A stretch of DNA of 64,000 bases, from contig NC_135056.1 of assembly GCF_051014685.1 (NCBI RefSeq), positions 1,798,001-1,862,000 on the forward strand, read 5' to 3'. Under the pieces are notes generated by a model that worked only from the letters and a program-made list of their open reading frames with translations, made no database searches and was not told where the DNA came from. Numbering within the stretch: position 1 is the stretch's first letter; the number at the start of each line of letters is the position of its first letter. The position numbers and the translations under genes were made by a program. This stretch comes from Ptiloglossa arizonensis (Eukaryota; Arthropoda; Insecta; Hymenoptera; Colletidae). Of this stretch, positions 5,480 to 48,638 are shown in pieces.

Positions 5480-5819
5480 ACTTTAAAAATTGCACACTCC
5501 AATATTGTATATTGGTTATTTTAAATGTTATTCTTTGTATTACATTAAGTTCCTTTGTACTTGGTAAATCTTGTTTTCAACTGATAGATTAATTGTAAAG
5601 AAAACCACTTCGATTTTAAAATATGAATAGCAATTAATTTATTAATTAAATCCCTTAAAATTACTCTATGTAAGATTATAACAATAATAAATATTTAAAA
5701 CTGCTTTTATTGTTTCTAAATTTTGTTCTTTAATATGTGGCGGCACTACCCACGCTTGCCACCAGAGGGAAACTCACCACCAACCGTTTCCCGCAAGTTC
5801 CCGTACCTGCTCCGATCGC

Positions 5820-5827
5820 TATATATA
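5820..5827 (+). promoter_or_regulatory. TATA box in left LTR
   Basis: TATATATA lies 29 bases before the first ribozyme base. With the usual 25-30 nt spacing, transcription would start at or just before the ribozyme's 5' strand, so the first ribozyme would lie at the very start of the RNA. The same box occurs at 6585-6592 in the right LTR. Confidence 0.55.
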
Positions 5828-5855
5828 CGACCTCTTACCGATCTTCCAATGTCCC

Positions 5856-5924
5856 GGCGTATAAGGCAGGGCCTGCTAGGATGCCTTACTGACGAGTCCA
5901 CTAGCAGGCCCGGGATGAAACGCT
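5856..5924 (+). ncRNA. Type III hammerhead ribozyme, left LTR
   Basis: Every element of a hammerhead can be placed. Stem III is GGCG (5856-5859) with CGCU (5921-5924), plus U5860 pairing with A5920. The cleavage base is A5861, giving a GUA site cut between 5861 and 5862. Stem I is UAAGGCA (5862-5868) with UGCCUUA (5882-5888), 7 perfect pairs. The core box is CUGACGA (5889-5895). Stem II is GUCC (5896-5899) with GGAU (5913-5916). The second core box is GAAA (5917-5920). The one departure from consensus is a G-U rather than G-C pair closing stem II (5896/5916). Loop 1 (5869-5881) and loop 2 (5900-5912) are complementary over 11 nt, consistent with a loop-loop contact. The open end is stem III, hence type III. 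Confidence 0.92.
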
Positions 5925-6500
5925 TATCCCCACTTCCTTTTCCTATTTCCGTTCACTCCTTTCTAACATACTTTAAAATAGCGCCGCCAAAGTGGTGACC
6001 CCGTCTAAGAACCAACGCAACCTTCTGGACAGCAGCACAGCAGCAGTACAGGTGCAGCACAAGACGATGGAAGGAACGCAACGTAAAGGCCGATTTTTCG
6101 TAAATCCCCCTCTCCGAGGGTTGACTCCTCGACCTGCCAGCGACGACACGAACGCTATACTCCCGGCTAACCATCAGGATCAACCCCAGGAGGACAGCAG
6201 GCAGCTTGTCGACATTATTCACCGACCACACCGATGCGTTTCATAAATACTGGTACGCGCACGCATCAACGTCGGACAACAAGCGAAAACGCGGCTTGAG
6301 CAAACGATGCTCGCCACGCGTATTCCGCAATCGACAGCAGCTGGGCCTTACTACGAAAAAGAAGCATTCTTCTCTTCCACCGCTCTGGACAACCTCCTCC
6401 TGTGCCTGTTGTGACAAACCGAACTACGGAACAAATACCTACGCCACTGGGACATCAGGACGGAACTTCAAAGTATCGTTTACCACTGGCAAGGGGGTTA

Positions 6501-6754
6501 TGTGGCGGCACTACCCACGCTTGCCACCAGAGGGAAACTCACCACCAACCGTTTCCCGCAAGTTCCCGTACCTGCTCCGATCGCTATATATACGACCTCT
6601 TACCGATCTTCCAATGTCCCGGCGTATAAGGCAGGGCCTGCTAGGATGCCTTACTGACGAGTCCACTAGCAGGCCCGGGATGAAACGCTTATCCCCACTT
6701 CCTTTTCCTATTTCCGTTCACTCCTTTCTAACATACTTTAAAATAGCGCCGCCA
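6501..6754 (+). repeat. Right LTR, 254 bp
   Basis: Direct repeat of 5736-5989, offset exactly 765 bp. It carries the same TATA box and ribozyme. The open frame running from about 6206 through this LTR is accidental, because the LTR sequence also reads open where it occurs alone. Confidence 0.88.
6621..6689 (+). ncRNA. Type III hammerhead ribozyme, right LTR
   Basis: Same 69-nt motif as 5856-5924, predicted to cut between 6626 and 6627. The left and right cut sites are 765 nt apart. Double cleavage would therefore release 5862-6626 as a unit-length RNA with 5'-OH and 2',3'-cyclic phosphate ends, suitable for ligation into a circle. Confidence 0.92.
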
Positions 6755-6834
6755 AAAATATATTTGAAACATACAAAATTCATACTTTATGAAATTTTAT
6801 TTACCAACATATTTAAATTACAACCATTAATTTC

Positions 6835-9800
6835 CTAAATATCAGCTTCTTTACAAAGTTGATACAATCGACTTAAATGTTCATCATTTTCAATAGCATG
6901 ATCCTTTTTCAACAATTCTGCTTTCAGGGAAGAACCAATGAAATCTTTGTACCCTATTAATTTTGTTCCGACTTCCAATGTATTCACCCACACTGTGTTT
7001 TTCAGATGTAGATTTACCTATAAAGTTAATCTTGTATTATGTTCTGTATATGAGACATAGAAAATGTACAAAACGAATAATTTACCGTTCCAATCACATA
7101 AGATCTTTCATCTACATTTTCTCTAAACCACTGACACACAGTGTCAAATACAAAATAATTCCAAGTATATTCATCATCGTGCGGAACTATACCAACTAGA
7201 AATACTTCCATTACTCGTGTTGGATACTTTACAAATTCTTCTGGCATGTGTAATAATCTATATGTCTAGAATAAAAAAAATTACATTAAAAACATGTTGT
7301 ACCATATTTCTTTAAGTTATTTTTCTAATTATTATATTTGATTACGAACATTCACGTTTTTAAAAATGACTCCATTGTCAATGCATCTTACATCTACAAA
7401 TTTTGGAATATTTGTATTTGTTTCTTTCTTAATATACAGAATTTGTACTCTTTTAAAACTATCTATTGGTTCTTCTAAACCAAGTATAGATCCTACATTT
7501 ATTACCTCACATATCCTCCTATGTACAGAAATAAAAGCAAAAAATATATAATATAATTTTTTTAATATTTTCATTATATTTTAAGTTAATTAATGAAAAA
7601 CAGATATAGTAATATATTAACCTGTTCCCAAAACATGAATAAAACTCTTGAATTTTCGTAGTAATTTCTAAGTATTCTATATTAGAGAATTCTACTTCTT
7701 CCAATGTATCAAATTTAATATAAGACACAATCCTAGCAGAAATGTGTGTAACATCATGTATATTAAGTACTCGAAGTTTCACCTTGTCATTTCTAGAACA
7801 GAAAAAAGTTATTATTAAAACTTTCTGCTGAATTTGAAAATCAAAGTTTCTATTTACATTCGAATATTCATAATTGGTGCATCAACTTTTGGAATTATCC
7901 TATGTCGAAATGTACAAGAATGGCTAGTGTGACATAATCCCCACAACTTCATATTGATACAAAATGGCTGATTCTCTTTCTTTATTTCTAAACTGGTTTT
8001 TATGTGCTAAAAATGTAAAAATTTTACAATAAATTAACTATTTTTAATATTATTTACATTCAAGTAAGTAACAAATGTACATGTAAATTAATTCCTCTAT
8101 CATTTTTATAAATACCTCAATGTTTTTTAACATATTTTGAGAGATTGTAACATTCATGCGTTGCATTATTTTTATTATACTTAAAAATTGTATATCACTG
8201 TTTTCATCAACCATAATAGTTACTTCACAATTAGAGTTTTCCTTAAAGAATTTAAGCAAATGATTATTTTGTATTGAATTATTTAAAATGTATAATAATG
8301 TAGCAGTATACCATTTGTAAATTTTCTAAAAGTGTTGAAAACCGAAAATTGAATTGAGTCTTGAAGGGCAGAGAGACTGAATAGTGTATTAACCAAATTG
8401 CAGTTGTTATATGTAAATCCGACAAAACTTCATCTGTGCATATTAATACTGGATAGAAGCCACTTACACAAGCATCCCAACACTGTTTGATACCTACGTT
8501 AAAGAAACAATTTTGAAATACAATTTCAAAATAATATATTGAAAATTGATATCTTTATACCTTGTAAATGAATAATGTTCATATCTTCATGAGCTATAAG
8601 GGTATCTTTATATTGTCTTAAAAATTTATGCAATTCTTTAGCCTCATCACTATCCATACAAACAATTACAGTTCTTGATTTAGAATATTTGTCGCCTAAT
8701 AAATCTGTAATAAAATCATTTTTTCTTTATTGCTATAAGAACACAATTATCTAATTTAAATTTTTCAAATAATTAAGTTTTACCTAAAATCTTTTTATCT
8801 TTACTCTTTGAATTCATTATGTACATCTTTGGAAGTACGGATTTAAAAATAGCAGCTTCTATAAAAGATGCTACACATATAAATGGATTGTCCATTAAAA
8901 TACAAGCAATTCTTTTTAAGCGTTGCGTCCAATGCTTAGCAGTTACTACAATTTGTAATGAAGTACTCTTATTTTTCAATTCTCTGTTATAAATGATTTG
9001 ATGTTTTTTAAATAACTTAGTTATCTAGAAAAAATCATTTTTATACTTTCAAAGCAAGAACTATATTTTTGTAAAAAGAGATAAATGAAAAAAATTATGA
9101 AAATTTACAGAATCATAGTACTTATCCAAAATTATGTCACCGTCATCCAAAATTAAATATTGAAGATTTTCAAAATTCAATAATTTTTTGTTTTGATCCA
9201 TAAAACGTGACAAAAATCTTGGTGTAGATACTAAAATCTGACATCCATTTAACATTTCAGCCTGAAAATTCATCACTTAAATGCATTTTTTTTTGCTAAG
9301 TTATGCTAGAAATATTACTTGGAAAGTTTACTTACCACTAATGACCTTTCTGATTTATCATTAATTGCAGCAACACATTTTATGTTTTTATAGCTTTGTA
9401 AAATTGTTGTACACAAAGCATGAACTCCTAATACTTCAGAAGAGGAAGAACATAATATTACTGCAGTTGGATTTTTCATTCCTTGAGGAACCTGTTTCAA
9501 ATTATGGAACTCATAAAAGTAAAAAGATTTATTCAAAAACGATGAAATACCTCCCTTCTTCAAATGGGTTTATTTCAAATTCTACATATTTATAAATGTA
9601 TATGATTGACATCAATGTTCATTATGAAATTTTTCCTAATTGTCTATAAGAGGCATAATACAAGAGTGAGTGGAAATGTCGCTGGACGATAATCAAAATA
9701 AATGAATATTTCTATATTTTAAGTAATTAATAAATTCATACGTGTGAAAAATTAAAAATATTTTAATAAAACTTTAACTAAAAAAAATTGCAAGGTTTTA

Positions 9801-12800
9801 GTTTTTATAGGTGACCATTATTTTACACAAATTACAAGTCATCCCATAGATAATGTCATTATTTGACAATGATTTTCAATGAAAGAAGTTAATACTTATG
9901 TTTGTTTTCAATCATTAATGTATTAACCATCATTTTGTATGACTTTTTCCCATCTATCAATCAACTTTTTGATTCCACCTTCGAAAAATTTCTGGGATTA
10001 TGAATTAAAAATTCATTTAATGCTGATTAAAATGTAAACATACTCACTATTATTGAAATTTTTGCCAATTAAAAAATGTTACAGTGAACAAAATAGATGA
10101 TAATATCTTGTTGCTAGGTCTGGAGAATATAGTGGATATGGCCCAAGGTCCCAATTGAAATTTTTAATTTTGTCCACTTTTATCTTTGCTGTGTGTGACC
10201 TAGCATTATCATGATGGAATAAAAATTCACTAATGACAGTTTCCACTAAAACTGCTTATAAATGATTAAGTTGTCTACAAAATCTCTGCTGTTACAGTCT
10301 GATTTTAATTTAAAAGTTCAAAGTGAATGATTTTTCTAACATCCCATCACACTCACAATAAAACCTTTTCAGAATAAAGCCCTGGTTTGGAGCTTGACCA
10401 CGTGATAACCATTGTCGTTTGCATTTAAGATTGCTGTATGAAATCTACTTTTTATTACTAATAATAATTGGATTGAGAAATGGACAATTACTTTGCCGAT
10501 CTTGCAATGAAGCATAAACGTTCATATGCTGGATATAGTTAGAAATTCATGCAGTACCATAAAGTACCCATTTTCCAAGTTTCGATATTTTTCCCTGTCG
10601 TTCCAAATGTCAATAAACTGTACTACTACTACTACCTAATGTTTCAGTTATTTCTTCAGTAGTTAGATGAGATTCTAACTCGATTAAAGTCTTTAATACC
10701 TTAGCATCGAATGTTGTTGATCAACCAGACCTTGGTTTATCAGAAAGATCAAAATTACCAGTTTAGAATTTGGAAAATCACCTTTGGCACTTTTTCAAAT
10801 TTCTTTTTGAATAAAAAATATCGATCTAACTGCTTTGAACGCAAGGTGTAAACTGTCAAAAGTGCACTCTTTAAAAGGCATAAAAAGAAGTGTCTATAAT
10901 CATATTGTCAGGATGCAATTCAAGTGTTTATTTAAATTAAGATAATAGACGACGTTACCTATGGGATGACCTAATATATACAATTTTTCAGTTTATATAT
11001 TAGGTCAATTTATCTTGTTTTCACTAAGAAAAAAGCATATTAACCATTATAGAAAAATATGCACTTTCCAAATTTTAACGAAATCAATTTTACTTATAAG
11101 TAGATATACCTTACTTAATGCTCTTTCAGAGGACATCAGTTGAATTGTACAAAAATATTTGGATTACAAATTAGAGCATTTAATTCGAACCGTTTTTCAT
11201 GTTTGCCATAATGAAGTTGAAGTGTCCAAAATATTTATACAAAACTTGCGAGGTTTGTTAACAGATGATTCCTCTGTTATACCTTCAAATAATTGAATTT
11301 TTTTTTTTCATTTTTCAAAAGTGTATATATTTAAGAATGCGCTGTTAAATTTTGAAAGGGAAATTTCAAATATTGTAAATTATGGATTGAAATTTCAAAC
11401 ATTTTGTACACCCTTTCCAATACATGCTTCGAATCCCTGACCATACAAGGACCACAAGGACGAGTACAATGCAAATCACAAAGGTAGTGCTGACAAGATA
11501 AATTTTTTTTTTTTTAAGTTTTGAATATTTAAAAGGTTTGTAAAAAAATATAATATAAAATATACCTATTATATCGGAGGTGGTGATACAAAACTGTTTA
11601 AAATGTTACTTGATAAAAAAAACTATACGGTAATGATTGGGTAGTAAGAGAAAGTAGTATGTTTTACACGTTAAAAAAATACATTGTAAAGGACTAAGAA
11701 AGCAAAAAAACACGACAAAAAGCCAACTGTCCGTCCAGATTAAACTCATGATGCAAATGTAAGAAGAATGAGGCTGCAGGATCAATGATCGCGTATCTGC
11801 ACCCAGTCCCTCCAGACAATGAATTAAAGGATATTTTAAAACTAATATATGAAGACCTTTCATTAAATAACCTATTGAAAAAATATCTTGATTCAAACAC
11901 CTAGAACAATAACAAAAGTTTCAATGCTTGTATTTGTTATATGTACATTTTGTACATATGTAAAAAAGACTTGGAAATTACTATCAACTCTGTAACTTGT
12001 ACTTTTAACGAAAGTTTCCATATATTGTTGAAAATAATGAACAATGTGGATGTAAAAATTGATCCAGGCACCGATTGCCTTACTGAGGTACAAGACAAGG
12101 CGTGGATGTTCACCGCCAAGAGCTATAGTTCTAATACCTTAAAGGAGACTAGAACAACTCGTGGAAACGATATTTTTTGAAACTTAATACATAATTTTAT
12201 TACAAAACGTTAAACGTGTTTTTCTCGAAACGTAATTTTTCTACCTGATGCAGATAAAATATAAAAATCTACATAATCGATTGCTCTGAAATTTGTACAG
12301 ATTATTCCACGTACTTCTAGCTCTCGTCGATACCAGAATTATATTCTTATGTTGAATTTTTCATATTTTTTTTTTTAAAAGTTGCCAAAAAAAATACGAA
12401 ATTTTAGAATTTGTACTTTCATTATTCACCACCTTACCAATTTTCAAGAAAAATGGTTTTAGTACAAATATAACAACAAATGTATTAATTAAGAATTTTT
12501 CTAATTTTTTGATTGTAGGACATACTACAACAAGACATGATTTTTAAATGTGATTATTGCAGATGAGATAAAACTAAAAAAATTATTTAAAACTGTATAA
12601 AAAATTGAAATATGTGATTAAAAAATAGTCAAATAAACTATGAAAAAAATCACAATGTCAGACTTAGCATTTGTTTTAAAAAATTAACATAAATCATGCA
12701 TTGGAAATGTCTGACAAGAAGAGTGCAAGGTCTTCAAGTCACTGATTTAATTCAAATATTGCAAAATTTGACATCCCTGTTGGTGGAGATATGATTATGT

Positions 12801-15800
12801 GGATCACTACTCAATAATTTTTTTGATATTTGTAACTGAAGATCTATCATTTCCTAAATATTTTCTTCCTTTTTTCCAAAGTGGTTCTAAACCTGACAAG
12901 GGATACAAATGTACCAGACTTATTTTACTATCTAAGGGAATAAATAACTGACGTTTTTTCTCTTTCGATTTGTACCATTCATTGTCCACAGAATTCACGT
13001 GTGTTATTTCTATGAAGAATGGTGTTATGTATGTGAATACATTCTCATGAATTGATTCATTATTATAAATTAAACACTCCTATGTTACCACTTTGTATTC
13101 ATTTAGCATGTCTATGATGGTTTTGGTAATTTTTGTGCTTATTGTCACTGCCACATCAGAAATTACAATAGATGCTTCATCAGCAATTAAATTTTTACTA
13201 TGAAGGTACTATTCAGAATAAACTAAAACATTTTTTAATAATTGCTTTTCGTTTAATCTGTTGTTAAACTCACAGTCACTTGTATCGAAAATATTAATTA
13301 ATTGTGAAGTTAAAGGTTGTGAATACATTCTAACTACACTATAGTTCATTGTGAATTACAGTGAAGCTGATGAGTGACCAACAGAATTATGCACCAAAAA
13401 AAAACCAATTTATAATAAATACTTATAAATATTAATCTATTACATGGTAATCACTCCGAATAGAAGTCCCTTTAGGGAATGATAAATCTTCAATTGCAAA
13501 TGTCTAAAAAATTATTGAGTAGTGGCCCACATAATCATATATTTTCACCAACAGAAATGCCAAATTTACCATTCTGCATTATTTGAACTAAATCAGTGAC
13601 CCGAAGATCTTGCACTCTTCTTGTGAGACATATTCTTTATTTGAATCTTTTGAGTCTATAATTTTAAAACAATTATATGTTTTCTACATATTATACATAA
13701 AATAATTAAAGAACATAAATTAATCAGAAAAATAAAAGTATTTGAAATTATGAATAGAAAAAAATGTTGCCAACTAACGTTAAGAAAATCATACATTACC
13801 GACTATTTTTTCTAAGACAAATTTGAATTTTCTATTAATACCGGTTACATACCTAATTTTCTGCATTATATTTTTTATTACAATTGATATTGCTTAAATT
13901 TTTTTTTTCATGCAGCGACACTTTCAGCATTTCCCCTTTATCCTACTCCCTGTAAACTTACAGACAAATTTAAAACAGGTTTAATAATGAACACATACAT
14001 CTATAAATGTGAAAATTTGAAGTAAATATTGGGGGGGGGGGGGGGATTTCGTCGTTTTTAAATGAACCTCTACATAACATTATTAGTTATATAATATATA
14101 ACAATAGTATTATTGCCATAATTTTAGATTATTAGATTTATGATTAATAACCAAAATAATATTTTTGGATTCATAAGACAGCAAACAAAATTCAACATTC
14201 GATCTCCACACTATCATTAATCCTTTTGACTCTATGTCCCAATGATTGTTTCTGACTGCCTGTAGAACAATATATGTGTCGTAGATGCATTATTTTGCAC
14301 TATTTCAGTCTGTTTGCCTACTGCTATTTTTGATTGATAATCATGATAATAAGTAACGTAGCATAATCCCAAGTAGTTTTTATTAAAATAGTTTATGTGA
14401 TTGCAGAGTAACAGAGACGGAAACCTCGTTTTTTACATACGTAATTTTACGATTATCGCAATTTTTTATTGTAGTAATACTGTCAGTGCTATAAAAAGGA
14501 GACAGAAAACAGATAAAAGGTTGAATATTAGTTACCCAGAAAAAATATTTTATAGTAAATATGTATGGGAGGTGTTGATCTGTCTAATGAAATAATCACT
14601 CTGCACGATTTTGAAAGAAAATCTTACAAATGGTGGAAATACTTTTTTTCATGTGTACTCCTTATGAGTCTATTCAGACATATAGATAATGCACATGGAA
14701 GTAAACAATATAAGTACCCAGCTTCTTAACTTTATGAAAACCTACAAAAATTTCAAAATATATATTCAGTGAATGGAACATTTCATATACCTTTCTGAAG
14801 AAGAAAAAAATATGAAGGACATGCCAAAAGTTCTCTCAAAATAAAAAAAAAATAAGAACAAAAACAATTTATGTAAGTTGTAAAATTCCTCTTTGCAGGA
14901 GGTACTTTACCAAACACCATAAGTATTTTTAATAATTTTGACTGAATAACTCGTTTGTTTTTGAAGATGCAAAAAAATGCACCAGATTAAACTTATTTGA
15001 AATTGAGAGGCTCATAATCTAATGTTACTAATTTTTTTATGGGTAGAAGTGTTAAGGAAATATGAAGGTCAACTCTAGTTTTTTAAATGAAGCGATATGG
15101 TTGTTTTACTTACATTCTGATAGAGTTCCAAGATAAATATAATGACCTATTATGAAGATCATTCAAGGTTACTCAAGGTCAACTGCAAGAGAAGACAGAT
15201 TATTTCAAAGCACACTAATGACTAGAGTACAATTTTCAACAATGCGTTACATAGTAGCAGAGAAAGTGGAACTTCCCCATCGTAATAGATCTTCACTTTC
15301 TGACTTTGCAAACATTATAAAAAAATTTTAAGAAACCAGAAATGTAGATAATAAAACACGCAATCAAACCAAAAGTGCAACCGATGATGAAAATACAATA
15401 AACATTTTAGCAGCTATGACATGAGATCCATATGTTAGTACGAGGCAACTTGAACGCGAGAATGGCATCGAATGACGAAGCACTTTGTGAATACTTCACG
15501 TTAACCAATTTCACCTGTTCCATATTTCTCTTCATCAACAATTAATTGAAAATGATTTTCATAAACATTTACAGTTTTACAAATGAGACCTACCAAAACT
15601 GTAAGACGATGAAATGTTCTTAAATAAAATTTTGTTTACTGATGAAACTACATTCACAAACTACAAAAAAGTTAACTGTCACAACTTGCACTATTGATCA
15701 GTGCAGATTAGTAGATCATCCACGATGGCTGAGAGAAATAGACAAACGGAAACCATGGTCTGTAAACGTCTGGTGTGAACTTCTTCATAATAACTAAATA

Positions 15801-18800
15801 GTCGTAAATATGAGAGAATCATAAAAACGTTTTGCCAGAATTGTTAGAGAACATTTGACTGGAATTCATTAGAACATTCAGCACGAAATGTTACAGAATT
15901 TCTGAATAAATAACTTGGAGATTGTTGGATTGTTCAATCAGAAAGAAATAAATGGCTAGCATATTCCTTAGACCTGATATCTTTAGATTTTTATTTGTGG
16001 GGAAAATTAAAGGGACAAGTGTACCATTAAAAAGCAATAATCAAAGTTGACCTGTAAAAACGTATAAAAAGAACTTGCTCTGTAATAGATATAAATGAAA
16101 TATGTCAGGCAGTATCATCAGTATTGCAATTTTTTAAACTATATATCCATGTTCAAGGTTGAGATTTTAAACACTTGCACTAGCAGTGAGTATGTAAATG
16201 ACATGTTCGAAAAGTGCTTTGAGATAATTTGTCTTTTCTTGAGTGACCTTGAATAATCTTCATAATAGGTCATTGCATTTGTCTTGGAACTCTCTATGAG
16301 AATGTAAATAAAATAACCATATCATTCCACTTAAAAAAACATATTTGACCTTCATATCTCTTTGACAACTCCACCTATAAAAAAATTAATAACATCAAAT
16401 TATGAGCCATCGATATGAAATAAGTTCTACCTCCAAACACAGGCGAATTATTCAGGTGACTTGTTTTAAATACTCCACCCTGTATATCATGTATTGTATT
16501 AAGCGGATAGATACTACTTAAATTTGAAAGTTCTATGTCAATTTTAAAAATTAGGACACATCTCTCAATCAGTGATTTATATATATAATGTAATAATGTA
16601 CCTATTCACCACTTAATACAATTGATTTCTAGAAGAAGATATATTAAAATTTAAAGAGAAAAATATAGAGTCGAAAGGGTTGAGGACAGGTATAAATGTA
16701 ACTATTAATATTAAAGCGAAATTATTATTTTATATGTAGTATTGTTACGTTTAAATTGGTAGCTAGGAGTCCACAAATAGCAAATCCACATCCATAAGTT
16801 TTACCAGACTTTTCTGTTCCAATTGCTATTACATCGAAACCTATTTTTATAGCAGGCCAAATATATGATTGAATTCGTTTTGGTGTAGATGAATGTATTA
16901 ATGAATCCCAAGCCTTAAAAATATATGTATATTAGTTTCTCAAAAATTAATAACAGTATCATAATCAGTTGTACCTTATGTATTGTAGCAGGGAATCTTA
17001 GATCTGAAATTGTATTCAAGCATTCATACTTAGTTTGTCCATAAATTAATACTTTTTCCATCTCTTTTCCTTTTTTATACATCTTTTTTAGATTCCTACT
17101 TCAAATTAAGATTTATAAATGAATTAAAAAACTAAAAATGGTTACATATTTTTTTGAAAGAAGAATAAAGATTGGTATGAAAAATATAAAAGCACACAAA
17201 AAGACTAAAGAAAAATAAATATAATAAAAAACAAACTAGAAAATTAAATACTTATGAATAAATTGCAAGAAATAATCAACCAAGTAGGAACAGAAAACAA
17301 ACAACTAAATAAATCACAGAAAATAATATCACTGATATTCTAGAAAGGTACAAGGAAGAAAGTCATAAATTATAGATGGTTGATATAGCTAAATGTAACA
17401 TAAAATTTATGTGATGATTTTGTTAAAAAGATTAAATAAAAAGATGAAAAGAATAAAAATAATACTGAAAATACACAGGTTTCAAAAACAAAAAAGCACA
17501 ATAAACATTTTCATTCTAAACAAAATTAAAAATAGAGACTTGCAAAAAAGAGGTGGGAAAGTTTTCTCACTTGGTTTCAAAACTTGAAAGCAATTTAGGG
17601 CAAGTAGGTAAAAAAAAATTAAAAAATATAACGGAAAAAAAAAATAAGTCAACAGCAGTCAATTACTAGGAAATAAGCAATACAATTAAATTTAACAGGA
17701 AAACAAAATTATGCACATCAAAAAGCCTAAAACAAAAATGCCAATTGAGCCTGTTTATATTGTATGTGGAGATCAAGCAGGTAGAGTTATAATCGAAAGA
17801 AAAAAATACTGCAAAAAATCATTTTGAAAATTTAAATGATATGTTGAAGAGAATAAAAAGATTTTTAGGGAAGACACAATCAACATTAAATGCTGAGAAA
17901 CTAGAGAAGAAGTCTCTAGATGGAAGATATAAAAAAACTCAATATCTAGGATTCCATTTCTAAACGAATGGTGACATGAAATTTGAAAAGAACTATGAAA
18001 GAAGAATGATAATGTTTTGATGTTTGGTAGAAAAAATATTGTCATACACAGTAGAAATATAGAGATGGGAAGAAGAGAAGAAAATAGAAAAAATACATAA
18101 CAAATTCATCAAATCAAGACTAAGAGAATATTTCGAAGTAATTATTTAAAAGTTTAGTCTACTCACCAATTTCGATTACTTGTAGATATGTTGTAGAGAA
18201 CAAGACTTGTAATAATTTTTTCCTCTGTATGTATATGTAATCTGCTTAGTTTCCAAGATATTTGTAAAATTCTGTTAATACCATTAGGTTAAATTGTGAC
18301 TATATGTGGTGAAGTATGAGTCAGTATGCAAAGTCAAGTGATTACTACTTACCTACTGTTTCCAAGCGAAGCAAATGCATCTCCACACATCCAACATCAC
18401 GTTTTTATTTGGAGCATCTGTTCGTGTATCTATGCAGAGGATAAAGTTATTCCAAATTTTGTTCTTTATAATATACCCACAAGTAATTGAAATCAGTAAG
18501 TAGACCAAACTTCTAAATAATTGCTGTTACTTTTTACTACAAATCATAGAAAAATAAGTTAGATTGAGAAGCCTAATTATTTAAAAATTATTTTAAATTC
18601 TAAGAAGATCTAATTTTAATAGTGAGATTCAGATACTACAATGAAAAGGTATGGATGAAAATATGGATGAAACAAGAAAAGAATAGATGCAAAATCTATA
18701 AAGAGACAAAGACATTGAAATATCAATTAAAAAAATAGGTTAAATAATATCAAACAAAAAAATTACAATGTGATAAAATGTAAACCTTCTTTCAAAGGTC

Positions 18801-21490: not shown

Positions 21491-21862
21491 TTAGAGATGG
21501 TCTTATAGTTGATGTATGTTCCATAAATAATGTTATTAATTGAATAAATTATAAATTTCAAAAGTTTTTAAAAGTCATTACAAAATGAAGTGGTACCTTT
21601 GCATAATAAACAGTTTATACTTTGTACTGTAAAGTTCTCAATTACCTACCCTCTCTCTGATTTCAATGATTTTCAAATAAGTTATAAAGGGTGAAATTTT
21701 AAACAACTTTTTCCTCTGGCAAAATTTCTAGTTGACTTTAGTTTCCAAGATATTAAGAACATTCTTGTCACAATAATACATTAAATTCTGTCTATACATA
21801 TGTACATGTCCATGGCAGCATATCTGTCATCAGACACTATCGCTTGCTTGCTGTTTCAGGTA

Positions 21863-23653
21863 CAGTTACTGACAAAATTATTTATACATCGTAATCTGTT
21901 CAGTTTAAATAATAATAACTTTAATTATAGAAGGCTAATTGTCTATGAAAGGCACACAAGCAGTCAGGAAATTAACTTAGCTTTTAGAAAGTATGAATTT
22001 TATTATGATAATTGAAAATACAATAGACAAATCTCTAACGCCAAAGAAAGTAAAGAATTTGATGAGAAGAAAGTATTTATATAGAATGTTTTTTTTTTGT
22101 AAATCAATGATAATATTTATAGTAATTATTATAATATTTACATTATTTATAGTGATTAATATTTTGTAAGATATCCATTATTATCAATAATGGCTTGTCA
22201 ATTTACATTTCCTTCTATTTTTTGCTACTCTTCTTGAAAAATGTTTTTTAAATCATTTTTATTTGGAATTTTATATCTTTGTAAATAATGTTTCAATTCA
22301 TCCCATATATGTGCGATTGAATTATGTCCAGTGATTGCAGAGAAGTTTCCAAAATGTGAGATGTATTGTATAAAAGCTATTTTCTAATTAATTGTGACAT
22401 GGATTTGTTTCTTCACTACTCTTACAAAATACCCTGAATCTTTAAGTATATTTGATATTGTTTTTGGACAAATTTTGTTGCTAGTCCTTGCGTTTAATTC
22501 TGCTGCAATTTTAGGTGCATTTTCAAATGGACTGTCTTTCTTTAATGTTTTTTGTAATAAATCTTTCATACCTTTCAGTTAATTTACTCAGTCTTTCGAT
22601 TCAATGCATATTTACAATTACACAATAACATGATTCTTTACCATGTCACCAATTTTGCAAAGTGATTTCTCACTTTTCCATAAGTCAATTATGTTTCCTC
22701 TACTGTAATTTCTTTATTTTTAATTCTTTTATTGGCATATTTCCTCAATAGATGTCACTGTATAAATAATTTTTTCTCTCAGATTTTCTTACTTTATTCG
22801 GCATTTGAGATTTGTCTGTTGTATTTTTATTTAAGTCATAATAAAATTCATACTATCTAAAAGCTGAGTTAATTTCTTAACTGCTTATATACTTTTCATA
22901 ACTAATTAGCCTTCTATAAATAAAATTATTATTGTTTAAACTGAATGTATTGCCTTGTATAGATACTTTTTTTGGTAACTGTTAAGGCTCGTGGTCAGAT
23001 CTCACATAGATCTGTCGAGCATTGGGTGTTTGCACGAATGATGTGCCGTCTAATACCCTTCTCGAAGGACCACCTTCCCCAATGGAAGAACACAATACAC
23101 AAATGGAGTTGACAGTAAAGATGTAACTCGAAGGACCACTGTCCGATTCGAGGAGTTCTCAATGTTAGTGAAGAACTACGAAACCTTTGATGATTTGTAG
23201 ATGTAACGATTGAAGAAACTAACTCAAGGAATGTCACTCAGCGGAGACGTTACCTCGGTACACCCTACTACTCCCGAGTCAAGGGTGAGAGGCAACGCGC
23301 CACTGACCAATCGCGACGGGCCCAAGGCCTCATAGTGGCTGATGACGCCCGCTACAAGGGTTCGAAGGTGGGAGGCGTCGCGACGCCGAACAGGGTGTCC
23401 AAATCACACAGACCTGGACTGGAATTTCCCAACACGTGGAGACCCCACCGCGAGGCCAGGAGTACCCGTGTCCCTCGCGGAGCAGCGTTTATGACGGGCA
23501 ATTGCCAACATCTGTCCAGTGCCTCGGGCTGCACGTCGACAATTTCTATTATTGCCAACAGGCCCGGTTCGTAGACATTTCTACGATTTGCTAAAGAAAC
23601 CCGAAGCACATGGGCCCGCCATAAATCGCATCTGTAAGCCTCTACAGTAACTG
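21863..23653 (-). mobile_element. Tc1-like element with long TIRs, interrupted by a solo LTR
   Basis: The left end CAGTTACTGAC (21863) follows TA (21861-21862). The right end GTAACTG finishes at 23653 and is followed by TA (23654-23655). Imperfect inverted repeats of about 150-170 bp extend inward (21863-22030 against 22815-22979 plus 23652-23653). The interior minus strand encodes a deleted Tc1 transposase. Its HTH part reads SPFENAPKIAAELNARTS and NKICPKTISNILKDSGY (about 22550-22440), followed by the C-terminal part with SIAHIWDELKHYLQ (about 22318-22275) and IDNNGYLTKY (about 22190-22165). The middle of the DDE domain is missing. The right TIR is split by the solo LTR at 22980-23646. Confidence 0.85.
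22980..23646 (-). repeat. Solo LTR, BEL/Pao-related, 667 bp
   Basis: Begins TG (22980) and ends CCTCTACA (23646). It is flanked by a perfect 5-bp duplication GTAAC (22975-22979 and 23647-23651). Stretches such as GAGCATTG...GTTTGCACGA and CTCGAAGGACCACCTTCC near its start, and the same CCTCTACA end, match the LTRs of the BEL element at 28496-34968. It is shorter and clearly diverged, so it is an older or sister family member that lost its body by LTR-LTR recombination. The open frames inside it are LTR by-products. Strand is given as the orientation of the related full element. Confidence 0.88.
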
Positions 23654-24271: not shown

Positions 24272-26300
24272 ATGTACGATTTTGAATGCAAGGACGATTT
24301 AGCGTTGCTCGACTTGGAGAAGATGGCTCAGCTCGGGCGCACCGTCGCAAATATTTGCGATGCGGCGATGCTTGAGGTCACTGTTGAGGAGCTTGTTACG
24401 CTCATCCAAAGGCTCGCGGCGAAGAACACCGCCTCGGGGCCTAATGGTGTGCTTGGCTGGGTCTGGGTCTTGGTACAGGACGTTCTTGGAGATGGTCTCC
24501 GGCAGCTATTTGACCGCTGCCTGGAGACCGGGCGATTCCCCTCCACCTAGAAGGTGGCGCGAATGGTCCTCCTCCGGAAGGAAGGCCGGCCAGTGGACTC
24601 TCTGTCCGTGTACTGATCCATCTGTCTTCTTAATGATGCGGGCAAGTTGTTTGAAAGGGTGCTGGCGGCTTGTATCGCCGTGTCTGGCCCCTCTCGGCCT
24701 CGACCGTTTCTCAGGGTGGGGTTGTACTGGCAGTGTCGTTGGACATTGCCAATGCCTTTAATGCCCTACCCTGGGAGGCAATCAGACAGGGGCTCATGGA
24801 ACATCAAGTCCCCGCCTATCTAAGGGCAGTGATCAAGGACTACCTCCACGATAGGTGGATCGAGTGTCTGGGCTGGTACGCTATGAAGCGTAGAGAGATG
24901 TACTCCAGCGTTCCGCAGAAGTCCGTACTGGGGCCTCTGCTATAGAACTTTGGGTACGACATGGTTCTGCGGGCCGTGGACCTCCCCGATGGCGTCAGCC
25001 TAACGTGTTACGCGGATGACACGTTGGTGCTCTGGCCGTCGGAGAGGACTGGAGGAGAGCCATTCAGCGGGCCGAGGATGGTGCCCGGCGCGTTGTCGAC
25101 CGGATCAGAAAAATAGGTCTGGAGATGGTTCTCCATAAAATCTAGGTGCGATCCATGCACCTCGGGGACAGCCACTCCCCCCCCCCCCCCCCCCCTGATC
25201 CGGATAGGAGAGGCCGTTGTCGAAGTGACATCCCAGATGAGGTACCTGGGGCTGATTCTCAACAGCCACTAGCAGGTTGAGTGCCATTTCCGATCCCTAA
25301 TCACGCGGTTGAAGAGAATAGTCGGCTATCTGGGCCGGCTCCTCTCCAACCTGCGGGGCCCGAATGACTGGGTACACCGCTTCTATGCGGGCATGGTCCA
25401 TTCAGTAGCCTTGTATAGGGTCCCCGTATGGGCGGGCGACCTAACTGCTTCCCGGCGTAGTCAGACCCCTTTCTACGAAAATCACTGCGAGTCCCGTGAC
25501 TGGGGGATGGTTCTGGCGGGACAGAAGGTGGACGCCCTCAGACGCCAGGCCCGGCAATCTATGCTGCTGCGATAGCAGCAGCGGCTGGCCAAACTGGTGT
25601 TCGGTCAGCAAACTGTCGGGGCTATCTGATCACTCCCGTTGGAGTGGCTGTGTAGAGGCTACACCTGGGCGGGTAATCGTCGTGTCCTGGTCGACATGAT
25701 TGGGGCGCGTCTCTCGCTACCGAGTTTGGCTCTTACCACGCAGCGAGAGAAAGTGGAAGGCCGTCGCCTCCTTCTGCGAAACCGTACTTTTAGAGAAAGA
25801 GGTCGCGAAACGGAGGCGAGAGCGGCTCGTGTGGGCTCTAATAGGTCCCCTAAGCGTGGCAGGTGGAGGCTCACCTGGGGAGAGGGTACCTCTTACATCC
25901 CCGAGAGCGGACACAAGATAAACGCCGCGCCGATGGCTCGGTACCGCCTTGCGTCTCCATGCCGTTGGACGCGGCTACGGAAGTCGCAAGCGGTCATGAG
26001 ATTGCGGTTCACGGCGTCCAGGCACTGAGAAAAATTGGGGTGGCCAACTTTTCGCCCCCCCCCCCCCCCCCCTAACGGAAATTGGAGTGGACGCGGCGAT
26101 CGTGTTGCACGCGGAGCCACCGGAAGACTTCATGCGATTCGATTCCCAGTGGCCTCCCGATAACGTGCGAGGATAGTCACCGTGGTAGGGTTTAGTGGAT
26201 AAGTCCCGCATGCGGGGAATTCCACATTTCCCCCGGCCCCTCGACAAGGGATCGAGGGAGTCTTCCAAAGATTTCCCAACAAAAAAAAAGAGGATTTAAC
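24272..26300 (+). mobile_element. R1-like LINE, 5'-truncated, inactive (copy a)
   Basis: GC-rich plus-strand remnant of a reverse transcriptase in shifting frames. Finger-region sequence is AKNTASGPNGVLG and FDRCLETGRFPST (about 24415-24550). After a frame change come SLDIANAFNALPWEAI and AYLRAVIKDYLHDRWIE (24735-24865), VPQKSVLGPLL (about 24910), and the catalytic box CYADDTLVLW (about 25010-25035). It is interrupted by in-frame stops and by a C-homopolymer at 25177-25195. The 3' part, 25640-26290, is shared with copy b and ends in an A-rich tail at about 26280-26290. Sequence order and wording match the R1 clade. A second C run lies at 26055-26072. Confidence 0.78.
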
Positions 26301-26711
26301 GTATGATGTAGTCATCATCTTTTTTCTCAATAAAGATTAATGTTTAATATTTTACTTTTTGTGTGAATAATTTCTAGTGAGTAAATATTAGTCTATAGAA
26401 TAATAAGTGTTTTTCAATCAAATTCCTTATCCTGTTATTGTACCACTTCTTACGATGCGACTTGTACGATTATTCTTATGAATGACTGTACATTCTACAG
26501 GTGCAACAATCAACTGTCATTCTCTGTATTAATATAGTCGTTAACTGTTAGGCAACCGCCTACGGCCTACAGAAACGAGGTAGGCTTCCATATCTATAGG
26601 GTGCTTACGTAATTTTGTATTACGTGTTAAGGAGGCCACATACATGTAAATGGATAAAAAAAATCGATTTTCAAAACTGTTTTTTTTTTTTATTGTATGA
26701 TATTTTAACTT
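26301..26711. other. Intergenic, nothing recognised
   Basis: AT-rich sequence between the R1-like LINE tail and the ribozyme-bearing composite element. No gene or repeat boundary was recognised. Confidence 0.4.
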
Positions 26712-26774
26712 TGGGGCGCTTAAATTGAAGAGTGTGGAGGTAAAGGAAAGGAAAGCGAGGGAAAAGGAAGGGAA

Positions 26775-26843
26775 GGCGTTTCATCCCGGGCCTGCTAGTG
26801 GACTCGTCAGTAAGGCATCCTAGCAGACCCTGCCTTATACGCC
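26775..26843 (-). ncRNA. Type III hammerhead ribozyme, third copy
   Basis: Minus-strand match to the LTR ribozymes with the core fully kept. Stem III GGCG (26843-26840) pairs with CGCC (26778-26775), here without the G-U of the other copies. The cleavage site is GUA, between 26838 and 26837. Stem I is UAAGGCA/UGCCUUA, with core boxes CUGACGA and GAAA. Loop 1 differs by one base (GGGUCUGC for GGGCCUGC), which turns a G-C into a U-G contact with loop 2 and so keeps the loop-loop complementarity. Preservation outside an intact two-LTR element suggests it moved recently or is under constraint. Confidence 0.85.
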
Positions 26844-27373
26844 GGTACATTGGGAGATCGGTAAGGGACATTGATTGTCTAGCAGCTTCCCGGGCGCCAA
26901 GTGCGCAAGCTGTGTCGTACCAAGGCTTTCGCCTAAACCGAACGGTGTTGGAGCTAGCTTGCAACCGCTGCCAACGGTTACGCACGTAGGTGTTTTGTGC
27001 GGCGAGCATGGAAAAACCCTCCTTCACCGCTCAAGGATCATAAGGAGAGTAGATTGTCCCGTTGGGGAGGTGATCCACTTCGCCGTTTGGCAATTAATTA
27101 CTGTGCAAGCACAGCAATCAACGGCGAAACGTTACCAGCGGGAGCCCCGAGGAGGCGAGATCACTAGCTCGAAGCTCAGTCTCGTACGGGCTCGCGGATC
27201 TCTCAGTGAGTGTTTGACGTCGGGTGCCGTAGCATCCGGTGTTTCCCGTCATGGCACACTTCTTCCTGATGGAAGCAGTGCCCGTGATATCATGTACGGG
27301 TGCTGTTCTGTGTTGTAAGAAGGCTGATTTTATGGTCTTATTTCTATTTTTCTTTTGGTTTCAGTCGTTGTAC

Positions 27374-27829
27374 TTACCTTGTCTCTCGAGATCTCATTGC
27401 CATGGCTGCGAAAGTGTGCAATAGGGGATATGTGTTCTTACGTGTCAGTTCCGGTAGTGTGCAGGGCCATTGGATGTTGGCTCGTGTGACTTTTTCTCTG
27501 AGTGCTTTTCGTTCTTCGTCGTGGTTGGGGCAGTGGAAAATGATGTGTTTTATGGTGTCTCCTTGGCCACAGCTGCATATGTCGTTGTCGGAGATGCCAA
27601 GTTTATGTAGTTTTTCCTTTATCTTACCGTGTCCTGTCAGGAGTTGCATGGTATAAAAGTTTGGGTTGATCCATGTTGCCTTTATTCTTTGCTCTACATT
27701 GTCGAAGAACTCGAATATATTTCTTCCTTTAGTTGTGTGTGTCCAGTTCGTCTGCCATGTATCAATGGTTTGCGTTTTTATTTGTACTTTTATCTGCTTG
27801 ATTCTTATTTCATCCGGTTCGCCTTCCAA
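27374..27829 (-). pseudogene. LINE ORF2 C-terminal fragment (zinc-knuckle tail)
   Basis: A 151-codon open frame preceded upstream (to about 27955) by TLLAGVTPIELLLTERKAFY, another typical post-RT segment. It contains NFYTMQLLTGHGKIKEKLHK, LGISDNDICSCGQGDTIKHI and FHCPNH, the usual end of R1/Jockey-type ORF2 proteins. There is no catalytic RT part. It sits inside the composite element at 26712-27997. Confidence 0.65.
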
Positions 27830-28109
27830 TGGTGTGAAGTGGAGTTGTCCTATTTTGAATTCTTCGTTGTTTCTGAGGTGATAGAATGCTTTCCTTTCAG
27901 TGAGGAGTAGTTCTATTGGGGTGACTCCTGCGAGCAGGGTAAGGGTATCCGTTGATACGGTTTTCTTCTGGTGGCAAGCGTGGGTAGCGCCGCCACAAAA
28001 CTATATACAGTTCAAATTTTATTGAATAATTCGTAAAATAGACGAAGTTATAGCCTATCTCATCGGACGCTCATCTTCACACTCCAATCGAATTCTCTGC
28101 GTCGTATAA

Positions 28110-28495: not shown

Positions 28496-29451
28496 TGTAG
28501 CTGCTCGTGGTAGATCTCGAGGATCTTTCGAGCATTGAATGTGTTTGCACGATGGGTGCCGACTATAGATGACTCGAAGGACCACCTTCCCGTTGGAAGG
28601 ACTAACTGTTGTTGATCGTTGTCCACTAGGCTGGACCGATGGAGGTTGTAATGCCGCCTTCGAGGTCTCCGCCGCTTGCTGCTCTCACGTCCAGGGGGGT
28701 GTTGAGCGTTGTCCTCACACACGGCGCCTCACTGGATGCACAAGTCGGCTGCCGAACTTCCTCGAAGGTCCAAGATTCCGTGGAGGCTCGAGGGATTGCT
28801 GGTAATTCCCTCGAGGAGTGCAAGTTCTTTGTGGGAACTAACGCCGGAAGCTTCACACGTCAATCCGTGCGTTCAGGCCAAAACTCTAACCGTGATCTCT
28901 TAGCTGTACTCTGTACGCCTTGGTTGTAAGCCCTTGGCGATACTCTGTACACTCTAGTCGTCGACCCTTGGTTCTATTGTCTTGGTGGTATTCTGTGCAA
29001 CTAATCTAAGATTTCTTGGGTCAGTGCAAACGTCGCCTCGGTTCGCCCTACTCCCTTGAATTAAGGGTGGGTGGCGACGAATGCCTGACCAATTACGACG
29101 GGTCCTAGTCCCGCCGAATCTAGGACATGCCCATCGCTATGGGGCTTAGGTGGGGGCGTCGCGACGTAGACAGGGTGTCCAAACCCCCGCAGGCCTGGGC
29201 TAAATTTTCCAGCATCTTGAATGATGCAACAAACGGCGCTAGGGCCTCGCGTGCCAGGCGATGCGGAGGGTCCCTGTCTAAGTGCCTGCAGTGGTTTATG
29301 ACGGGAAATAGCTATCACTGGCTCCGTGCCTCGAGTCGAACAACAAATAAACGGACCCTCGGTGACAGGCCCGTGCCGTAGCCATGTGGACAATTTCTCT
29401 AACAAACTCGAAGCACGGTCCCGCCATAAAACGCAGCTGCAATCCTCTACA
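28496..29451 (-). repeat. 3' LTR of BEL element, 956 bp
   Basis: TG...CA termini. Pairs with 34013-34968 at an exact offset of 5517 bp. Open frames at 28345-28929 and 29061-29405 occur identically in the other LTR and are not genes. Just outside it inward, the minus strand is purine-rich (AAGGTGGGCGG, about 29464-29454), a candidate polypurine tract. Confidence 0.92.
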
Positions 29452-29549
29452 TACCGCCCACCTTGAACTACTCGAGTTCAACTAAATCAAAATAACCTTA
29501 TGCTATATCGCCTATTAATTAACGTTGCTAAACGACTAAAATACAGTTT

Positions 29550-32500
29550 TTAAACACACGCATCGCGATCAATTGACTGCGCATGCTCCTTTTCACTTGA
29601 CTGCGACTGAAGTCTCTTCTTCCTGCACGTTAGTTCCGTGCCGAAATATCGCTCCTGCGTGGCGAGGATAATTCGGCGCTCAGCCGCTACAAGTTCGTCC
29701 ACGGCAAGCGGGCACGGAAGACTTCCCGGTTTTCCGGTGTCGCGTTGACGTCGCGCACCCTTACAAAATCTAAAGACATATGCTAGGACCCGACAGAGCT
29801 TGTCGAGGCACGAGTAGCGCGTAGCTAGCCCCAGCACCACGGATTCGCAACCGACCGTCGTCGCTAATTGCAAGATTTGCGGTGCCCTTGCCTCCGGAAC
29901 CTCTATCACGGGTGGATCACAATGTGGCCATTTTTCGCTGTCCAACGATAGCCATGTTGGGCCGTGCCACCACAGTCGGTCGCTCTTGAGAGCGGCCGAG
30001 TCGGCACCGCGTGATAAGATGTCTGCCGGGTTGTCGCCGGATGCGACATGTGACCATACTTCTGGTCCGGTTAACTCCTGTATTTCTGATACACGATTGG
30101 CTACAAATGTCTTCCATCGCCTTGATCTCTCACGAATCCATGCCAAAACGATCTGGCTGTCGGTCCAACAATAGTCGCGACACGATTTGAGGCGTAGGGC
30201 CTCCCTAACCTTTTCTAATAGCCGCGCTAGCAGTACGGCACCGCACAATTCAAGCCTCGGCAGGCTTATTGCCTTTAAGGGAGCTACCCGTGATTTCGCG
30301 CACACCAAACGAGAGACCCACCGTCCCTGTTGCGTTCGCGAACGCAGGTAGATGGCCGCGCCGTATGCCCGTTCCGACGCGTCGGAGAACCCGTGCAACT
30401 CGACGCCCAGGCTGGAGGACGGCACGCGCCGCGGGACACGCAACGTGGAGATTTCCCGTATCTCTTCTCGGAACCGGCCCCATTGGGATTGAAGCTCTTG
30501 TGGGAGGCTTTCGTCCCATCCTACCTTGGCCGCCCAGAGTCCCTGCATGAATATTTTTGCCCTAACTATCAAGGGTCCGACGAGTCCCAACGGGTCAAAA
30601 ATCTGGGCAAGTTCCGCGAGGACGTGGCGTTTTGTAATTCGAGGGAATATTTGATAATTGCTGCTATATCCTAGCTCGTCGGTGGCTATGGACCATAGCA
30701 AACCCAAGGTCTTCGGTTCCATATCAACCGACCTAAATTCCAGCTGATCTGTTCCACCACCGTGGTGGCTTATTGCTCTGGGGTCGTTGCTTGCCCATTT
30801 CCGTAACGGGAAACCGGCACTAGCCAAGACCCTTGTCAGGGATTCGCGTAGCTCCGCGACCTGCTGCACCGTCTCGCACCCGGTCAGCAGGTCATCAACA
30901 TAAAAATCATGCAGGATCGCCTTGCTGGCTGAGGGGAATGACCGCGCGCACTCCCGGCCTACCTGCTGTAGGACACGGGTTGCTAAGTACGAAGCGGAGG
31001 CGGTACCATACGTCACCGTATTTAACGCGTACGCGCCGATGCCCTCGTCCTCGCTGAACCGCCAGAGGATTCTTTGGTAACGTCGGTCCTCTTCCCGAAT
31101 CGCGACCTGCCGGTACATCTTGGCAATGTCTGCCGAGAGGACGATTGGGTGCTTGCGGAACCGAACCAAAATTCCAAACAGGTCGTCCTGCACCTGCGGC
31201 CCCACAAATTGAGCGTCGTTGAGTGATACGCCGGTGGTGGTCCTTGCGGACCCATCGAATACGACGCGGAGTTTTGTACTCGAGCTGGTGCCCTTCAGTA
31301 CCGCGTGGTGGGGCAAGTAGAAACTTGCTTCGCGTTCGTTCGCGGATTTCGCGTCCAGCTTCGACATGTGCCCTAACTCTACGTACTCCCGCATGAAATC
31401 CTTGTATTCTCTTCCTAACTCGGGATTTTTCTTGAATCGCCTTTCCAGATTCAGAAATCGTCGTTCTGCCTGAGCGCGAGACCCACCGAGCTCCCCGACT
31501 CGCTCATTAAACGGTATCGCGACCACGAACCGGCCATTTTCATCGCGCGTCGCGTTCTCCCGAAAATGCTTCTCGCACGGATCTCTGCCGTTCGCGCGCC
31601 CGACGTTGCCGACCTCCTCCACCTCCCAGAAACGCGAGACCGCTGCTTCTAAGCTTGCATTCGTACTCGCGTGGAATCCGGACGCAAACCTGACCTTGCC
31701 CTTCAGAGCGGGCCACTGTAGGCTCCCACCTAACACCCACCCGAGTCGTGTCTTTTGCCACAGAAGGTGGCTGGTTCCCACCCTTACCTGGCCGACACAC
31801 AGGAGCTCCCAGAATAGGCCGGCGCCTATAAGTAGATCTACGTTCCCCGGGACTCCGAACTCTGGGTCAGCGGGCGTTATTCCGGAAGGTGTAGGAATGT
31901 TGGCCCTTTCCAACGGCATGTTGGGAAGCCTCTCGGTGATTGCTTCCATTACCAGGCACCCCAAGTTCGCCTTGAAGTTTCCGTTGCTGGATTCCAACCG
32001 CACCTGGGTGGTTGCGCGGATGGTGCTTTTGACGCGCCCCAGAGCACCCACCGTGTATTCGAACGCCCGACACGGCAGGCCGGCCCGCTTGCAAAACCCC
32101 TTGCTCACGAAATTCGCTTGCGAACCTGAATCTAACAAAGCGCGACATTTGTACCTGTTCCCTCCCTTCCCTATGACGACGACGACCGCCGTGGAAAGGA
32201 CGGTGTAACGGGTACAGGGTTGTGCCGCGCTTAAATTATGGAACGCCACGGTGGGGGGTTCCGATTTCACCTCACGTTCCTCGAGATCTGATTCCTCCCT
32301 ATGTAACAAGGTGTGGTGCTTGCCATTGCACCTTGAGCACGTTCTTCGTGTGCACGCTTTGACTCCATGACCGGGAGCCAAACAGTTGTAACACACCCGT
32401 GCCTGTTTTACTACTGCATGTCGTTCAGAAACGGACATGGCTTTCCACTTTGAGCAATTATTCAAGAAGTGATCACCAGTGCACACTACGCATTTTCTGG

Positions 32501-33506: not shown

Positions 33507-34012
33507 CTTTACACGATCAACACACAGATTGAAACAATAAATGACTCACGGACAAGAGGAGTGGATTGGCGGCTTCAGGCGGCTTCCGTAGACCGTCCTG
33601 CAGAATACTCGTTGTTCGTGCTGTCCGGATCCTAGGGCTGGTGCCGTCCTGGATGCTGCCCCCTTCGGTTGTCTCCTCGTCGCTGTGGTCCAAGTTTTGG
33701 GTGTAGCAACCCTCGATGATGCCCGTCGCTTGCTGCCTTCACGTCCAGGGGGGTGGTGAGCGTTGTCCTCACGCACAGCGCCTTACTGGATGTACAAGCC
33801 GACGTGCACGTTGCACGGAGCCCAAAATGCTTCGTGACTGTAGATTCCAGCCGACTGTCCGACTCGTACGAACACAGTGGCTGCTTTCTGGCTGGTCCTC
33901 TCTGAAGGACCGATGTTGCTGGATGATCCGGCTCGACACCAGAATGTAGCTGGATTATCCAGCTCGTGGGACCATAGGTCGCTGGTTCAGATCCGGCTCG
34001 TACGGACCAAAA
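33507..34012 (-). other. BEL element leader with duplicated LTR-edge sequences
   Basis: Untranslated leader between the 5' LTR and the gag start. It contains a diverged copy of about 90 bases of the LTR (33720-33800, including CTTGCTGC..TCACGTCCAGG). It also carries a second, imperfect copy of the PBS/LTR junction (33918-33968: GATCCGGCTCG..ACCAGAATGTAGCTGG...CTCGTGG), matching 33990-34030. The open frames crossing it (such as 33632-34102) derive from these LTR-like pieces. Confidence 0.6.
33992..34009 (-). promoter_or_regulatory. Candidate tRNA primer-binding site of BEL element
   Basis: Three bases inside the 5' LTR the minus strand reads TGGTCCGTACGAGCCGGA. The plus strand therefore ends in a tRNA-like ...GGACCA, as expected for a binding site of a tRNA 3' end. 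A GGTTCAGATCC just upstream on the plus strand even resembles a T-arm. The particular tRNA is not identified. Confidence 0.5.
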
Positions 34013-48031: not shown

Positions 48032-48638
48032 CTGTTCGTAAATTAAAAAAAAAAGATCAATAGTTTTTTATTACATGTCAATTACAAGTAAAAATCGATT
48101 TAAAACAGACATATCAAATACTTATTTCTTTTTGTATCTTTTTCTTATTCGAAAATTTATTACATATTATTTATATTTGGCATTACATATTTATATAAAC
48201 AGCTTTTTTCCAATAATACAGAATAAAACGTTTGAAATATCAATTATTAATTGATTAATTCCTTTCTTTACTTTTAAAAGTAACACTGATTCAAGTTTTA
48301 TACCAAATTTTGGTATTTGGTATCTGCAAAACAATACTATATTCAAAAAAAATTAAATAATGTTATTTAAGGAAAAATCGTATGTACCTAAACCTTTTTT
48401 ATAAATATTTGTGTACTTTTATTCAGTACAGTGCAAATTATTGTTTTTTTCTAAATCTTACACGTTTGCTTGTGATTTGACAGCACGATAATTAATGTTT
48501 GTATGATTGAAATATAATCTTTAAAATGTTTTTGATTATTATAAACTAATTGTATAATTTGCGATCATCTGCACATTAGTAAAAGATATATTGATTTTCG
48601 AGATAAAATAAGTTTGATATGCCTATTTTGGAATATTA
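48032..48638. other. Upstream region of mL42 gene
   Basis: AT-rich, presumably promoter and 5' flank of the mL42 gene, up to the TIR element that starts at 48639. No gene is seen. Confidence 0.4.

Follow-up and report, generated by a model that had tools for sequence, protein, structure and literature searches.

In the literature found, LTR retrozymes have been described from plants only, and the retrozymes of animals are non-LTR elements with type I hammerheads. Jatropha retrozymes have 697–776 bp between cleavage sites and a 4-bp target-site duplication, and almost no sequence is common to plant retrozymes of different species (PMC4918200). The hammerheads of plant retrozymes have loops of 6–8 nt and 4 nt with non-Watson-Crick contacts; in insects, type III hammerheads have been reported from Drosophila pseudoobscura, termites and several flies, and a search for the atypical type III form described in that paper reported none in hymenopterans (PMC7936874). 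Further insect hammerhead work has been announced as 'in preparation' (PMC7936874, PMC7761336).

Within the window (the whole 64,000-nt stretch of DNA analysed here), positions 5736–6756 hold a 1,021-bp sequence that we read, with a probability of roughly 0.78, as a non-autonomous, retrozyme-type LTR retroelement of a bee. The initial annotation had proposed that an animal element here has the LTR architecture of plant retrozymes, and the LTRs, 4-bp duplication, PBS, purine run, lack of protein, hammerheads and 765-nt unit all fit that proposal. It had also called the element probably undescribed: no animal LTR element with a hammerhead was found in openly licensed PMC texts, which leaves room for a publication elsewhere, but type III hammerheads as such were already known from insects. 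An LTR retrozyme in a bee would remove the published split between plant elements with LTRs and type III hammerheads and animal elements with neither, the latter being non-LTR and type I, and would allow a test between two separate origins of the design and its passage from one kingdom to another. One possible origin suggested for plant retrozymes is horizontal transfer from insects (PMC7761336).

LTRs, internal region and coding capacity

Self-comparison of the window gave two 258-nt direct repeats, 5734–5991 and 6499–6756, 100% identical and spaced 765 nt apart. The 5′ LTR was set at 5736–5991 and the 3′ LTR at 6501–6756 (both +, 256 bp, TGTGGCGGC...GCGCCGCCAAA, 100% identical), because with LTR ends TGTGG...CCAAA an exact AATA then flanks both sides (5732–5735 and 6757–6760); these ends are uncertain by 1–2 nt, and alternative ends yield short duplications too. 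AATA has the 4-bp length of the target-site duplications of LTR retrozymes, and it carries moderate weight since the flanks are AT-rich. The LTRs had earlier been described as identical-looking and 254 bp long; their identity is complete, whereas a length of 256 bp fits the AATA duplication best. From the identical LTRs, the insertion is recent. The element has a GC content of 0.53, compared with values of 0.37 and 0.26 for its 3-kb flanks.

The internal region (5992–6500, +, 509 bp) is non-coding. The longest frame of the element (210 codons, TTG start, 6206–6838) crosses the 3′ LTR into flanking DNA and has no Pfam match, and in a search of 5.8 billion proteins, where it also served as a probe for other copies, not one of the 59 candidates scored as homologous. 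This frame is spurious, and the element, judged on it by Pfam and homologue search, is without recognisable protein, as LTR retrozymes are; the earlier statement of 'no ORF' holds for protein, but not for the letter of the sequence, in which the 210-codon TTG-start frame runs through the 3′ LTR.

A PBS-like TGGTGACCCCG, a kind of sequence that the initial annotation had named, lies 1 nt past the 5′ LTR (5993–6003, +), and TGGTGACC occurs once in the window on either strand, at this site. The PBS-like sequence is one that we take to fit the 3′ end of tRNA-Trp, in place of the tRNA-Met of the plant type; the use of tRNA-Met may be a property of the plant helper and not a defining trait of LTR retrozymes. 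A weak candidate for a polypurine tract, read from the sequence, adjoins the 3′ LTR (AAGGGGG + TTA, 6487–6500, +): purine-tract sequence had been noted before, but the run here is short, just AAGGGGG, then TTA. Neither AATAAA nor ATTAAA was found anywhere in the element.

Hammerhead motifs

Each LTR contains a type III hammerhead at the level of the motif, copy 1 at 5856–5924 (+, predicted cleavage 5861/5862) and the identical copy 2 at 6621–6689 (+, predicted cleavage 6626/6627), which places the predicted cleavage sites 765 nt apart. Base-by-base checking gave a stem III of GGCGU/ACGCU, a GUA cleavage site with A5861 (A17) as its last base, a perfect 7-bp stem I and, in the 3′ half, CUGACGA, a 4-bp stem II, GAA and then A15.1-U16.1. 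The conserved core, the three stems and the open stem III are those of the type III class, and the core read in the initial annotation (CUGACGA, GAAA, A15.1-U16.1, GUA, 7-bp stem I) proved right base by base. Pair 10.1-11.1, which opens stem II and is usually G-C in hammerheads, is G.U.

A strict descriptor of this core (minimum stems of 4, 5 and 3 bp, both strands) found 3 sites in the window, all in LTRs of the same family, and matched 0 of 150 dinucleotide-shuffled windows. Scanning of the whole window with Rfam at the gathering threshold gave no hammerhead. When 1,301 nt were searched with an E-value threshold, RF00008 (Hammerhead type III) was the top Rfam match at both LTR sites (22.8 bits, E 0.051 each), at under half of its gathering score of 48.5 bits, so the covariance-model hit anticipated by the initial annotation was obtained in rank, but lay far below gathering. 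The low score probably results in part from the 13-nt loops, which exceed those of the model.

Ribozyme pattern scans of viral contigs gave no match, phage records gave none, and the scan of prokaryote genomes gave 2 matches. One of these lies on an acidobacterial contig (L002, 3870–3930), where CCGGCGTATAA, which resembles stem III, stands upstream of TGCCTTACTGAGGAGTCC, like the 5′ half of the ribozyme, beside a TATAAT that may be a promoter. Both prokaryote matches were taken as chance; a much-relaxed descriptor and Rfam find no hammerhead at either.

An older solo LTR on the minus strand

The third descriptor site, which the initial annotation had not picked up, belongs to a solo LTR of this family that is older and broken (26710–27997, −); blastn matched it in two pieces, of 38 nt at 92% and of 110 nt at 93%. 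The aligned pieces (27997–27960 and 26865–26760, −) are separated by 1,094 nt, and visual inspection carries the copy on to about 26710. As many as 60 nt of the LTR (5774–5833 in the full element) have no aligned match in it. The flanks read AGTT on both sides if the start is set one base earlier, and GTTT/GTTA with the ends of the full element. The interruption of about 1.1 kb (27959–26866, −), which stands where those up to 60 nt would be, is LINE-like and includes a frame resembling zf-RVT (E 0.00029, below the family cut-off).

The hammerhead of the older copy (26775–26843, −) differs at 2 of 69 nt, which map to 5872 and 5924 of the full element, and both changes keep pairing: a C to U change in loop 1 turns a loop-loop G-C into G.U, and a U to C change in stem III turns G.U into G-C. 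CUGACGA, GAAA, A15.1-U16.1, the 7-bp stem I and stem III are all retained. The central 67 nt carry 1 substitution, against 39 in 126 nt across the remaining aligned LTR (Fisher p 1.3e-7), a count that takes the 5′ piece as far as its 37th nt and excludes positions 5774–5833 and 2 gap columns, and in which 34 of the 39 substitutions fall in the poorly aligned 3′ part; with the well-aligned 5′ parts only, the comparison is 1/67 against 5/60 (p 0.10, not significant). At the sequence level these counts are suggestive of ribozyme conservation between the older copy and the full element. RF00008 scored 13.8 bits at the older hammerhead in a 141-nt search (E 2), with stems I and III placed differently, and Rfam listed nothing there at E ≤ 1 in a 1,501-nt search.

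This copy also bears on whether the locus could be a partial tandem of a repeat derived from circular RNA, of the animal non-LTR type, with ends that are alike by chance. Animal retrozymes do occur as tandem repeats, from dimers upward (PMC7229834), yet the hammerhead here is of type III rather than type I, the PBS stands directly past the first repeat, a 4-bp duplication is present, and an independent solo copy has nearly the same ends (27997 and 26710), all of which makes a tandem origin very improbable.

Loop complementarity and predicted folding

Loop 1 (GGGCCUGCUAGGA, 5869–5881, +) and loop 2 (ACUAGCAGGCCCG, 5900–5912, +) are each 13 nt long, and the first 11 nt of loop 1 are perfectly complementary to 11 nt of loop 2, a length matched in 4 of 200,000 shuffles of both loops; the initial annotation had made no mention of it. 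The predicted MFE structure is the hairpin formed by the two loops (−29.7 kcal/mol; the hammerhead with its loops unpaired reaches −12.8), and by folding prediction it remains the MFE form in a 144-nt context and in the 765-nt circle. Since the hairpin is more stable than the hammerhead, the monomer may cut poorly, and the 11 loop pairs are probably not all able to form in the cutting shape. The predicted 765-nt circle folds at −233.8, compared with −201.7 (sd 7.0) for shuffles (z −4.6, better than 60 of 60 shuffles), with 58% of bases paired; for other retrozyme RNAs more than 70% has been given (PMC4918200).

About 40% of hammerheads have been judged to use a loop pseudoknot, and one type II ribozyme that was assayed lost much of its activity when the pseudoknot was disrupted (PMC3088659). 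In plant retrozyme circles the ribozyme is likewise predicted in a blocked form (PMC4918200). On the loop complementarity, the stable hairpin and this blocked form in plants, we propose a switch between hammerhead and hairpin.

If the conserved feature were instead a simple 11-bp LTR hairpin, acting in RNA stability, packaging or termination, the hammerhead would be inactive or decayed. The wide margin by which the hairpin is the MFE structure and the sub-threshold Rfam scores would suit such a role, but a hairpin needs none of CUGACGA, GAAA, A15.1-U16.1, stem I or stem III, which the older copy keeps, and the full hammerhead combination arose in 0 of the 150 shuffled windows; we therefore regard a hairpin without a ribozyme as improbable.

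Proposed mechanism

A TATA box (TATATATA, 5820–5827, +) lies at LTR position 85 and begins 36 nt before stem III. The usual TATA spacing puts the predicted transcription start near 5848 (LTR position 113), with stem III following 8 nt later. Transcripts of the tobacco retrozyme NbRZ1 have a mapped start at LTR position 116 and lost their 5′ part through cutting (PMC12029980).

From these features we infer cutting, circle formation, a switch and a helper element. RNA polymerase II would initiate at the TATA box of the 5′ LTR, a few nucleotides ahead of the first hammerhead, and the transcript would read on through the second, in the 3′ LTR; both hammerheads would be contained in it only if its 3′ end forms downstream of the second one. 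A host RNA ligase would close the 765-nt RNA into a circle. After joining, pairing of loop 1 with loop 2 would convert the open hammerhead into the long stable hairpin and block re-cutting, a switch that would permit cutting during transcription and lock the RNA after closure. The circle would retain the PBS and the purine tract, tRNA-Trp would prime a CsRn1-type Ty3/gypsy reverse transcriptase, and a CsRn1-type integrase would insert an LTR-ended copy, with a 4-bp duplication as the result.

The placement of the cuts can be set against another account of the same locus, an animal TRIM whose working hammerhead does no more than trim the ends of transcripts or tune expression, and in which linear RNA, not circles, transposes. 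TRIMs are known in ants (PbTRIM), bivalves and tapeworms, and the LTR structure is complete. If both LTRs were cut close to where R begins, however, most of the terminal redundancy that strand transfer on linear RNA needs would be lost, and two ribozymes that bound a 765-nt unit are the plant retrozyme design (PMC4918200). A TRIM of this kind is thus unlikely, if less so than the hairpin or the tandem repeat.

For the retrozyme, CsRn1-type elements are proposed, on the agreement in PBS and 4-bp duplication, as the helper, not as the same element as 5736–6756. The fuller account, in which an insect lineage of LTR retrozymes of its own would use a CsRn1-type helper through tRNA-Trp, with a switch between hammerhead and 11-bp hairpin by which the nascent RNA is cut and the circle protected, is put forward tentatively, at slightly less than even odds. 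The element's way of working is clearer than its origin.

Host and other features of the window

That the host is a hymenopteran, as the initial annotation had supposed, was borne out by a Polycomb-like protein at 56811–60419, which is best matched by bees among named relatives (81% identical to Colletes latitarsis and 80% to Hylaeus volcanicus); after Colletidae, the next named matches are other bees, wasps and ants. A frame at 46618–47250 (+) with a LEM-3-like GIY-YIG nuclease domain is probably an exon of a host gene.

A BEL/Pao retrotransposon lies at 28496–34968 (−), with a 1,318-aa frame containing DUF1759, RVT_1 and Peptidase_A17, a CAGAT duplication and 956-bp LTRs that are 100% identical, from which its insertion is recent. 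As a helper for the element at 5736–6756 it was rejected: its LTR ends are different, its duplication is CAGAT, and no TGGTGACC stands past its 5′ LTR. No other element with a TGGTGACC PBS was found in the window.

GC-rich repeats are located at 49665–50582 and 52723–53611 and at 24399–25436 and 51212–52600, with an inverted pair at 93% identity and more distant pairs at 77–79%; a 154-aa frame in this repeat region (51628–52092) has no Pfam match. Inverted repeat pairs of about 150–320 nt and 79–83% identity (12707–13631, 14990–16426, 21862–22982, 48618–49555) are possibly MITE-like. The sole rRNA match in the window is a 28S rRNA fragment at 58–571 (−; RF02543, 277.6 bits, model positions 956–1444 of 3401).

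Comparison with known systems

Among hymenopteran elements, PbTRIM of ants is likewise a small non-autonomous LTR element with a 4-bp target-site duplication, AT-rich targets and solo LTRs, but differs in a tRNA-Leu PBS and LTRs of 152–184 bp; the words 'ribozyme', 'hammerhead' and 'retrozyme' are absent from the main text of the PbTRIM paper (PMC3532108). CsRn1-type Ty3/gypsy elements, which are present in insects, have a tRNA-Trp PBS, which that of the bee element resembles, and share the 4-bp duplication, but are autonomous, with gag and pol of their own, where the bee element has no recognisable coding region; the available parts of the papers mention no ribozyme in them (PMC2582038, PMC3630058).

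With respect to the ribozyme, the bee motif resembles the hammerheads of toad and termite HDV-like RNAs, of termite and fly genomes and of Drosophila pseudoobscura in being of type III, from an animal and with base pairing between loop 1 and loop 2. The hammerheads of the HDV-like RNAs differ in having an extended helix I with an internal loop and a loop pairing of about 4 nt, and those of termite genomes are isolated motifs (PMC7936874).

Animal non-LTR retrozymes share with the bee element a non-autonomous, non-coding unit delimited by hammerheads in an animal. Their hammerheads are of type I, their RNAs measure about 170–400 nt, their units stand in tandem, their GC is low, and they are without LTR, PBS or polypurine tract (PMC7229834), whereas the bee element combines type III hammerheads with LTRs.

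Plant LTR retrozymes differ from the bee element in host kingdom, in a tRNA-Met rather than tRNA-Trp-like PBS, in LTR length (300–400 bp, against 256 bp) and in GC content (above 55%, against 53%; PMC7229834), and the bee loops, at 13 nt with 11 nt of perfect complementarity, are unlike those of plant retrozyme hammerheads. In common with them (PMC4918200; NbRZ1, PMC12029980), the bee element is non-coding, has a type III hammerhead motif in both LTRs, with predicted cleavage sites at a distance that falls within the roughly 700–780 nt of Jatropha, carries a PBS-like sequence and a 4-bp target-site duplication, with a short purine run where the plant elements have a polypurine tract, occurs as solo LTRs, is GC-richer than the surrounding host DNA, and has its predicted transcription start just ahead of the ribozyme.
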